NCBI GenBank assembly: GCA_017983635.1 | Contig: JAGOBA010000001.1 | Location: 62,001 to 126,000, forward strand | Origin: Alphaproteobacteria bacterium | GTDB taxonomy: Bacteria; Pseudomonadota; Alphaproteobacteria; Micropepsales; Micropepsaceae | Direction: 5' to 3' | Length of the DNA: 64,000 nt | Part shown: one piece after another, positions 57,245 to 59,537 of the stretch | Layout of the letters: every line of letters begins with the position of its first letter | Numbering within the stretch: position 1 is the first letter of the stretch | Program-made: the position numbers and the translations under genes | The notes under the pieces: generated by a model | The model's database searches: none | The model's input: only the letters and a program-made list of their open reading frames with translations | What the model was told of the DNA's origin: nothing

Positions 57245-57318
57245 GGCCACGTGGCGGAGTGGTTACGCAGAGGTCTGCAAAACCTCGTACCCCGGTTCAA
57301 TTCCGGGCGTGGCCTCCA
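57245..57318 (+). tRNA. tRNA-Cys (GCA)
   Basis: A 74-nt tRNA. Acceptor GGCCACG pairs with CGTGGCC; discriminator U73 (a tRNA-Cys identity base) and CCA are encoded (57316-57318). Anticodon stem GAGGT/ACCTC with loop CTGCAAA gives GCA. T-arm GTTCAATTC is canonical. The last ten bases overlap the apparent start of the DUF3095 gene. Confidence 0.96.
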
Positions 57319-58460
57319 GCGCTTTACCTGCGGACTGCACCTTGGACGCCACCACCGTCACAAGCTTCGCCGACGTCTTGAACCCCGCCAACTATGTGAG
57401 CGTGCCGGACGGCTGGTTCGTCGCTGTCGGTGACGTCATCCAATCGACTTCAGCCATTGCCGCGGGCCGCTACAAGGACGTGAACCTGGCCGGCGCCGCG
57501 ACGATCGTCGGGATTCTGAACGCGTGCCCCGGGCGCGAGTTGCCCTACGCCTTCGGCGGCGACGGCGGCGTCGTGCTGATCCCGCCCGACCTCGCCGCGC
57601 AAGCCCGCAGTGCGCTTGCCGGCGTTCAGCAGATCGCGCGCAACGCGCTTGCTCTCGACATTCGTTGCGCGCTCGTTCCTCTCAGCGCCATCCGCGCCCA
57701 AAGCCGCGATGTGCGCGTCGCGTATCAAACGCTGGCGCCCGCGCGAAAGCTCGCGATGATGGCGGGCGGTGGCATCGACTGCGCGGAAGCGTTGTGCAAA
57801 TCGCAAGCGGGCGCCCCATTCGTCGTTGCGGCCGACACTAAAACCGCCGATGCCGATCTCTCCGGTCTTTCCTGCCGGTGGCAGCCATTGCTCTCGCGCC
57901 GCGGCGTGATGCTGACGGCTATCGTCCGCGCCAAGGACGACGCCGCGACGCTCGCCCCCGCCTACGCGCAAGTCTATGACAGCATCCAACACGCCACCTC
58001 GCGCGACGTCTGTCCGGTCGCGCTCTCGAATCTGCGCTCCACCTGGCCACCGCAGGGTGCCAGCCACGAACGCGCCTTCGGCCGCACGCTGTTCGAGGTC
58101 TACGGCCAGTCGCTGCTGGGCCTGATTTCGGAGAAAACGGGCCTTAAGATCGGCGGCTTCAACGGCGAGGCCTACATCAACGCGCTCCCGTCGCACTCCG
58201 ATTATCGCAAGTACGCCGACTCGTTACGCATGGTCATCGACTGCTCGACTCGGGAAGCCGATGGAATCGAGGCGATTCTCAGAGACTCGAAAGCCGCCGG
58301 TTTGATCGACTTCGGCCTCCATCGGGCCTCATCCGCGCTCATGACCTGCTTCGTGAGCTCAACGGACGACGGCGGCCATGTACATTTTATCGACGGTGCC
58401 GATGGTGGCTATGCGATGGCAGCACAAGAACTTAAGAGCCAAACCGCACCTCAGGTGTAA
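57309..58460 (+). CDS. DUF3095 protein with nucleotidyl-cyclase-like motifs
   Basis: A 383-residue soluble protein. Family blocks are TSFADVLNPANYVSVPDGWFVAVGDVIQSTSAI (20-50), GRYKDVNLAG (53-62) and LPYAFGGDGGVVLIP (78-92). The Asp42 in GDVIQST and Asp85 in GGDGG resemble the two metal aspartates of class III adenylate cyclase and GGDEF folds (D-x-x-x-S-T and GGD). The central and C-terminal parts (MAGGGIDCAEALCK; HVHFIDGADGGYAMAAQ) have no recognised motif. The start is uncertain: GTG 57309 lies inside tRNA-Cys, TTG 57342 is the next option; neither has a ribosome-binding site. Function is not established. Confidence 0.72.
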   Translation: MASSALPADCTLDATTVTSFADVLNPANYVSVPDGWFVAVGDVIQSTSAIAAGRYKDVNLAGAATIVGILNACPGRELPYAFGGDGGVVLIPPDLAAQARSALAGVQQIARNALALDIRCALVPLSAIRAQSRDVRVAYQTLAPARKLAMMAGGGIDCAEALCKSQAGAPFVVAADTKTADADLSGLSCRWQPLLSRRGVMLTAIVRAKDDAATLAPAYAQVYDSIQHATSRDVCPVALSNLRSTWPPQGASHERAFGRTLFEVYGQSLLGLISEKTGLKIGGFNGEAYINALPSHSDYRKYADSLRMVIDCSTREADGIEAILRDSKAAGLIDFGLHRASSALMTCFVSSTDDGGHVHFIDGADGGYAMAAQELKSQTAPQV

Positions 58461-58498
58461 GCCGGGTTACCGCAATTCATCGACTTGCGCCGATGTCG

Positions 58499-58514
58499 TT
58501 AACCCTTTGTTAAC
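58499..58514. promoter_or_regulatory. CtrA-binding-site match
   Basis: TTAACCCTTTGTTAAC matches the CtrA full site TTAA-N7-TTAAC exactly and, being palindromic, in both orientations. CtrA is the cell-cycle master regulator of alphaproteobacteria. The site is 39 bases after the DUF3095 stop and about 60 bases before a terminator, so it may control a very short plus-strand transcript. Confidence 0.5.
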
Positions 58515-58529
58515 CACCTCAGGCCAAAG

Positions 58530-58605
58530 TCTCCCTCGTCTTCCCATGAAGACACCCCACCATTTACCCAACTTTGGGCCCTGGTTCGCCAGGGCCCTTT
58601 TTCTT
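58530..58605 (+). ncRNA. Candidate small RNA with two hairpins
   Basis: Between the CtrA-like site and the stop of the next gene lie a 6-bp hairpin GTCTTC (58538-58543) / GAAGAC (58548-58553) with loop CCAT, a C-rich single-stranded linker (58554-58575), and the terminator hairpin at 58576-58597 followed by U-rich sequence. The layout (stem, unpaired C-rich seed, terminator) is that of a base-pairing small RNA. The boundaries are inferred; transcription has not been shown. Confidence 0.3.
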
Positions 58606-58607
58606 TC
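58576..58607 (+). terminator. Rho-independent terminator with UUCG loop
   Basis: A perfect 9-bp stem GGGCCCTGG (58576-58584) / CCAGGGCCC (58589-58597) capped by the extra-stable TTCG tetraloop, followed by TTTTTCTTTC. It acts on the plus strand, ending either the DUF3095 transcript or the candidate small RNA, and reaches the stop codon of the convergent small membrane gene. Confidence 0.9.
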
Positions 58608-58854
58608 AAGGGGTTGGCGGAGCCTGACGGGATCGCCACCAGCGCACGACTTTGACCTCGTTCACCCGTCGAAAACGCCGGACGCGGGCCGAATCCACCG
58701 ACAGCACCAAAAGGCCCGCCGGCAGCATCCAAAGCCCAAACACCGGGAGAACCGCGAGCGCGCTGCCCGCGACCAGGCCACCGCCTAGAGCCCGCCGCGC
58801 CATCTTGGATTTGGGCAGCTTCACCCGGAATTTTCCAACCTTCACGTGCGACAC
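58606..58854 (-). CDS. Small membrane protein of unknown function
   Basis: About 82 residues. A basic N-terminus (VKVGKFRVKLPKSKMARRALGGG) is followed by one or two membrane segments (LVAGSALAVLPVFGLWMLPAGLLVLSVD) and a strongly basic end (ARVRRFRRVNEVKVVRWWRSRQ). Comparable short proteins are common beside tRNA-Asn in alphaproteobacteria. I start at GTG 58854 with GGAGG 7 bases upstream; TTG 58878 and GTG 58845 are alternatives. No function is known to me. Confidence 0.72.
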   Translation of the reverse strand: MSHVKVGKFRVKLPKSKMARRALGGGLVAGSALAVLPVFGLWMLPAGLLVLSVDSARVRRFRRVNEVKVVRWWRSRQAPPTP

Positions 58855-58955
58855 GAGCGAGCCTCCGATGCAGGTCAAATTTTCTTTCGCGATTAACCTC
58901 GCTCTGATATAGGCACGGCCCTGCCGTCAGGAAAGCCAAGCGCTTTCTTCAATGT

Positions 58956-59030
58956 TCCTCGGTAGCTCAGTGGTAGAGCATCCGACTGTTAATCGGATGG
59001 TCGCTGGTTCGAATCCAGCCCGGGGAGCCA
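58956..59030 (+). tRNA. tRNA-Asn (GTT)
   Basis: A 75-nt tRNA including encoded CCA (59028-59030). Acceptor TCCTCGG pairs with CCGGGGA, one T-G pair. The anticodon loop in CCGACTGTTAATCGG gives GTT; discriminator G and T-loop GTTCGAATC are standard. The 59031-59184 stretch after it holds no gene that I can support. Confidence 0.96.
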
Positions 59031-59240: not shown

Positions 59241-59537
59241 TTATTGAGCGGGCGGGGTCGCGGGCGCTGCCGGGTCGGCCGGAGCCGCTGCCGGGTCGGC
59301 CGGAGCCGCTGCCGGATCGGCCGGAGCCGCCGCCGGATCAACCGCCGCCGGATCGGCGGGAGCTGCCGCCGGGTCGGCCGGAGCCGCCGCCGGATCAACC
59401 GCGGCCGGATCGGTCGCCGCCGCCGGATCAGTCGCCGCCGCCGGATCGACCGGCGCAGCAGCTTTGTTCTGCATGTAGTAGTAAGCACCACCGCCCGCGA
59501 GCGCGAGCACGATCAGTGCGATAACAGTTCTGTTCAT
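59241..59537 (-). CDS. Membrane-anchored Ala/Pro/Asp repeat protein
   Basis: A 98-residue protein: an N-terminal hydrophobic segment (MNRTVIALIVLALAGGGAYYY, a signal anchor) followed by a low-complexity tail built of DPAAAPA and DPAAAT units, ending PATPPAQ. The tail should be extended and envelope-facing. The tail is encoded by near-perfect DNA tandem repeats, so its length may vary between strains. It has its own terminator at 59185-59215. No function is known to me; a spacer or cell-wall role is only a guess. Confidence 0.72.
   Translation of the reverse strand: MNRTVIALIVLALAGGGAYYYMQNKAAAPVDPAAATDPAAATDPAAVDPAAAPADPAAAPADPAAVDPAAAPADPAAAPADPAAAPADPAAPATPPAQ
59266..59456. repeat. Tandem repeat encoding the Ala/Pro/Asp tail
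   Basis: A 21-bp unit (plus-strand sense GCTGCCGGGTCGGCCGGAGCC, split here as GCTGCCGGGTCGG and CCGGAGCC) recurs from 59266, 59287 and 59308 with few changes, then degenerates into 15-18-bp variants (gccgccggatca...). Whole-codon periods keep the reading frame of the overlapping gene. The near-identity of the first three copies suggests recent slippage. Confidence 0.85.

Follow-up and report, generated by a model that had tools for sequence, protein, structure and literature searches.

The DUF3095 protein encoded within the analysed stretch of alphaproteobacterial DNA (64,000 nucleotides; hereafter the window) is quite probably a soluble two-domain homologue of class III cyclases, equipped with one composite site for ATP and metal. 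According to the proposed mechanism, the protein would be a stand-alone soluble chain whose two class III domains form an intramolecular pseudo-heterodimer, similarly to the C1/C2 core of mammalian enzymes. Asp31 and Asp74 of domain 1 would hold two divalent metals, and Lys290 and Asp351 of domain 2 would recognise adenine, which together would make up a single nucleotide site. We infer that the protein binds Mg/Mn-NTP, with ATP as the likeliest nucleotide. The preliminary description of this DNA had proposed NTP and metal binding and, possibly, synthesis of a nucleotide signal; the predicted structure is in line with both proposals, in that binding of ATP and metal is probable and a signal may be made. 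The predicted attack of the 3'-OH on the alpha-phosphate, which would yield a cyclic nucleotide, is uncertain, and we consider it a nearly balanced prospect that leans slightly to the negative.

The open reading frame spanning positions 57309–58460 covers the full length of PF11294/DUF3095 (357 bits against a cut-off of 22.2; profile positions 7–378 of 378) and encodes the sole DUF3095 protein of the source genome. The GTG codon at 57309, from which this frame was originally read, is a wrong start, because it lies inside a tRNA-Cys(GCA) gene (57245–57318, forward strand), which thus overlaps the beginning of the frame and ends 23 nt 5' of the DUF3095 gene proper. The same tRNA-Cys-then-DUF3095 layout is present in two relatives (loci L032 and L033), both 71% identical to the protein of the window. 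The TTG codon at 57342 aligns with TTG in L032 and with GTG in L033, and L032 carries a stop codon between the tRNA-Cys gene and the aligned start codon. The gene was therefore delimited to positions 57342–58460 of the forward strand (372 aa; PF11294 E-value 1.5e-106), with TTG 57342 as the probable start. Under the resulting numbering, the residues formerly designated Asp42 and Asp85 become Asp31 (D31) and Asp74 (D74), respectively. Differences from the nearest relative, L032, at the three codon positions (0.23/0.17/0.47) show a signature of purifying selection on the gene. A tRNA-Asn gene is located downstream (58956–59030; the whole region occupies 57245–59030 of the window), and the tRNA-Cys and tRNA-Asn genes flank the DUF3095 gene in L032 and L033 as well. 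Given this close flanking, common to both relatives, the DUF3095 gene may be co-transcribed with tRNA-Cys.

The preliminary description was based on three motifs, GDVIQSTSAI, GRYKDVN and AFGGDGG, whose order had been likened to that of the metal-binding aspartates in class III cyclases and GGDEF domains. All three occur in frame at the positions reported, and the two Asp residues had been numbered correctly. Their conservation was assessed in a sample of 56 DUF3095 members and fragments, collected by genome searches. The Asp motifs are not a product of chance: D31 is Asp in 54 of 54 homologues and D74 in 53 of 54, and the two are separated by 43 residues in 51 of 53. In comparison sets from the same class of bacteria, class III cyclases mostly show a spacing of 44 residues, and GGDEF proteins one of 43. 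Asp31 (57432–57434, forward strand), the putative first metal ligand, lies at the end of strand 1 (residues 26–32 according to DSSP) and is followed by x-x-x-Ser-Thr; Asp74 (57561–57563, forward strand), the putative second one, lies in the GGDG hairpin that connects strand 2 (69–71) with strand 3 (75–80). The GRYKDVN motif (residues 42–48; 57465–57485, forward strand), found 17 residues downstream of the first Asp, marks the start of helix alpha-1 and ends with the invariant N48. It is indeed conserved, but does not occupy a metal ligand position. In the GGDEF domain of PleD, the FKxIND motif lies 8 residues after the Asp, and GRYKDVN is out of register with it (17 versus 8 residues). Further residues invariant in the family are S35, N48, R108, K153, T335, C336, H348 and Y357.

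Profile comparison provided evidence that is independent of the predicted model. When the profile of the N-terminal half was aligned with that of 37 class III domains (hhalign), a score of 34.0 over 123 columns was obtained, with D31 placed on the class III metal Asp and D74 on the class III GDG. None of 200 column-shuffled controls reached 34.0 (mean 12.9, maximum 22.0), and the reversed profile scored 20.3. Other searches did not reveal this relationship: the protein had no match to PF00211 up to an E-value of 10, none in PHROGs or NCBIfam, and searches of PDB sequences, with the single protein as well as with the profile, gave chance-level matches only (filamin; urocanate hydratase, E-value 0.0075).

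A model of the protein was generated with AlphaFold2 from an alignment of 20 rows, and was predicted with high confidence (pLDDT 90, pTM 0.90). Its N-terminal half has the order beta(26–32)-alpha(44–61)-beta(69–71)-beta(75–80)-alpha(82–103)-beta(107–113), i.e. that of the cyclase palm, and defines a predicted catalytic-type cyclase homology domain (domain 1, residues about 20–165; 57399–57836, forward strand). Structure prediction had been suggested as a check of the original idea, and the confident model has the cyclase core, with both Asp residues placed where class III cyclases bind their metals. The predicted fold and metal site are well supported. What did not hold was the treatment of GGDEF domains as equally close relatives.

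Beyond what had been described before, the C-terminal half of the protein is predicted to form a second, degenerate cyclase homology domain (domain 2, residues about 186–372; 57897–58457, forward strand). In VIA-align comparisons, residues 1–370 superimposed on the tandem cyclase 6yii (Z 13.6; 265 aligned residues, 4.2 A), and whole-chain matches were also obtained with human AC9 C1/C2 (Z 12.9), AC8 (12.2), AC5 (11.6) and the soluble adenylyl cyclase of humans (about 11). Cyclase domains in isolation covered the N-terminal half alone, with Z of about 9; examples are Ma1120 (Z 9.2, 115 aligned residues, 2.7 A) and Rv1900c (Z 8.9, 121 aligned residues, 2.8 A). As the whole-chain Z of 13.6 exceeds the value of about 9 seen for isolated domains, the tandem packing adds to the score, which suggests that the two halves of the model pack as a class III dimer. 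The only two Foldseek matches below 1e-3 were human soluble adenylyl cyclase and AC9. The C-terminal half modelled alone (pLDDT 83.5) matched mostly cyclase domains and Cas10 palms (Z 6.6–7.7; about 7 for bPAC and for the second domain of soluble adenylyl cyclase), although the search tool grades a Z of about 7 as possibly just a common arrangement, and this match taken alone is weak. Profile comparison gave no significant sequence match of domain 2 to cyclases. The profiles of the two halves shared nothing beyond a 16-column match, so the duplication is visible in structure only.

Domain 2 contains a helical insertion (residues about 248–282; 58083–58187, forward strand), which is missing from a natural paralogue (L119) that has nevertheless kept D31, D74, K290 and D351; the insertion therefore lies outside the conserved core. 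This short paralogue (L119:6813-8086, genome G107) has counterparts in genomes G043 and G253, as indicated by profile coverage. All three genomes carry the short form as a second copy, in addition to a full-length gene.

In two-domain adenylyl cyclases, the first domain provides the metal ligands, and the second provides the Lys/Asp pair of the base pocket together with the transition-state Asn/Arg. In DUF3095, Lys290 (58209–58211, forward strand) is located in strand 2 of domain 2 (DSSP strands 289–292/295–301) and is K in 51 and R in 3 of 54 homologues; by its secondary-structure register it would correspond to the Lys of K-T-I-G-D. Asp351 (58392–58394, forward strand), conserved in 53 of 53 homologues, directly precedes helix alpha-4 of the same domain (strand 345–352, helix 356–368). 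Judging from the register of secondary structure only, these two residues would sit at the places of the adenine-recognising Lys and Asp. No metal Asp is conserved in domain 2 itself, and one site per chain is therefore expected. Helix 356–368 contains no conserved Asn or Arg at the transition-state positions, where variable Ala/Thr residues are aligned; among the 37 class III domains, 32 keep the Asn and 33 the Arg. Because this canonical pair is missing, we regard DUF3095 as a class III cyclase-like family rather than as canonical class III cyclases, and the predicted synthesis of a nucleotide signal is uncertain. For the same reason, turnover would be slow or would proceed via Thr335, Cys336, His346, His348, Tyr357 or Lys365. 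The lack of an Asn equivalent is compatible with activity, since established cyclases without it exist, e.g. Rv1900c (PMC4886424). The most far-reaching version of this reading, a widespread bacterial second-messenger enzyme, i.e. a one-chain tmAC-like cyclase with catalysis via Thr335, Cys336, His348 and Tyr357, seems to us rather unlikely. If true, it would mean that a different catalytic route, without the canonical Asn/Arg, has arisen on the class III fold.

Two other explanations concern the ancestry of the protein. A coincidental occurrence of the Asp motifs in an unrelated fold would agree with the lack of a significant PDB sequence match, but the model, the fold search, the profile comparison and the conservation pattern all point the other way, which makes it very improbable. 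We consider it hardly credible that DUF3095 is a relative of diguanylate cyclases (GGDEF), even though the Asp spacing of 43 residues matches that of GGDEF proteins, the loop reads GGDG, and GGDEF structures appear among the structural matches (3icl, Z 8.9). The hhalign score against GGDEF domains was 20.1, a value reached by 5 of 200 shuffles; the protein carries no GGDEF/GGEEF signature and lacks the FKxIND register, and tandem cyclases score far higher. As its profile score falls inside the shuffle range, the GGDEF relationship was rejected, and by these comparisons domain 1 is a relative of class III cyclases instead.

The remaining explanations accept the class III fold and differ as to its chemistry. 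DUF3095 might be a pseudo-cyclase, which binds ATP and metal without turnover and acts as an ATP/nucleotide sensor or as the allosteric partner of some other protein; in rhizobia, this might be one of the class III cyclases whose genes lie in the vicinity. The loss of the transition-state Asn/Arg with retention of the metal and putative base positions speaks for this possibility, as do the class III cyclase gene found two genes away in Rhizobiaceae/Phyllobacteriaceae and the title 'adenylyl cyclase-like ATP-binding protein', under which 6YII, the closest structure, was deposited. However, a nearly exceptionless pair of metal Asp residues would be unusual in a protein that serves binding only, some established cyclases also lack the Asn equivalent (Rv1900c, PMC4886424), and the cyclase neighbour is limited to one lineage. 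We therefore treat the pseudo-cyclase as a minority possibility. Still less probable is another type of NTP chemistry on the same fold, either ring opening of the GTP cyclohydrolase III type or nucleotidyl transfer, performed by His/Cys/Thr of domain 2. Foldseek lists GTP cyclohydrolase III (2qv6, probability 0.35), Cas10 and Thg1-like proteins, and Thr335, Cys336, His348 and Asp351 are invariant, but these matches score far under the tandem cyclases and no neighbouring gene indicates a supporting pathway.

The preferred reading, a tandem class III cyclase homologue, may be set against known systems. The best whole-chain structural match, 6YII, is PaPycC of Pseudomonas aeruginosa, which belongs to clade A of the Pycsar cyclases (PMC11224242). 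In PaPycC, as in DUF3095, one chain spans both domains, but the two proteins share 9% identity. The protein had no match in PADLOC up to an E-value of 10, the Pycsar cyclase included, and no cNMP-binding, TIR or PycTM-type domain was found among the DUF3095 neighbours scanned. The mammalian C1/C2 cores of AC9, AC8 and AC5, as well as human AC10, share with DUF3095 the tandem domains (Z 10–13), the metal Asp residues in the first domain and, by predicted register, the base-recognition positions in the second. In contrast to them, DUF3095 lacks the Asn/Arg pair, is composed of 372 aa and, within domain 2, carries the helical insertion. Bacterial single-domain class III cyclases (PF00211; Rv1900c, Ma1120, CyaB, CyaC) have the fold and profile of domain 1 in common with DUF3095, as well as both the D-x-x-x-S/F-T and GDG motifs; however, they form homodimers, and DUF3095 escapes PF00211. 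A precedent is DUF2652, which computational work had placed among the class III cyclase-like proteins (PMC4886424). Its transition-state set is likewise incomplete, but it constitutes a different Pfam family, with one domain of about 250 aa and the Arg kept. GGDEF diguanylate cyclases share a related palm fold and the Asp spacing, but not the signature loop or the FKxIND register, and their profile similarity to DUF3095 is not above chance.

These predictions provide a testable function for a Pfam family without an assigned role. We found no mention of DUF3095, PF11294 or IPR021445 in the papers searched. Pfam's entry for the family reportedly describes some members as annotated adenylate cyclases, without confirmation, which would lower the novelty. 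If a cyclic nucleotide is made, the family would constitute an extra second-messenger source overlooked by cyclase annotation, since PF00211 fails to detect it; if none is made, DUF3095 would show that a cyclase core can be retained in nature for binding only. In addition, the occurrence of such a tandem arrangement in bacteria is relevant to the question of how two-domain cyclases originated.

Of 299 genomes sampled within the source phylum, 45 contain DUF3095, which was also detected in Verrucomicrobia. In addition, it occurs in 249 plasmid records, most of which come from Rhizobium and Sinorhizobium. Phage records yielded no match with the relative L036 as the query, and a viral structure library none below 1e-3. 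In the neighbourhoods searched there was no obligate partner gene beside DUF3095, which indicates that it is not part of a Pycsar operon; the neighbours are mostly housekeeping genes, and no conserved receptor or effector gene adjoined DUF3095 among those scanned. Genes for MBL-fold, HD-domain and class III cyclase proteins do recur, each within a narrow lineage, and the cyclases probably reflect cyclase-rich genomes; for these reasons, the recurrent neighbours were not counted as functional evidence. The class III cyclase gene, two genes from DUF3095, was found in L034, L118, L120, L122 and L134 (Rhizobiaceae/Phyllobacteriaceae; one lineage). In L118 it lies about 1.5 kb upstream of DUF3095 (L118:9681-11399, minus strand), and in its product the cyclase domain is preceded by a 2Fe-2S ferredoxin domain (Fer2).

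A gene of the MBL-GAF-HD type is placed directly 3' of DUF3095 in the alphaproteobacterial loci L036, L039 and L049 (L036:7126-9579, L039:7134-9551, L049:7150-9593), where it overlaps or abuts the DUF3095 stop codon. The L036 product consists of MBL-fold (Lactamase_B_2), GAF and HD_5 (HD-GYP-like) domains; the homologous stretch of L049 is divided between two ORFs. In the lineage concerned, this protein could act as a partner with nucleotide phosphodiesterase activity. Two different DUF3095 genes are arranged tail to tail in L038 (L038:5917-8223), and in L131 (L131:6983-8003, genome G064) a DUF3095 gene occupies three overlapping frames and is probably decayed or mis-assembled. Finally, a small ORF on the minus strand of the window (59241–59537) encodes a product with a single hydrophobic stretch at its N-terminus and, after it, roughly twelve repeats of the DPAA type.
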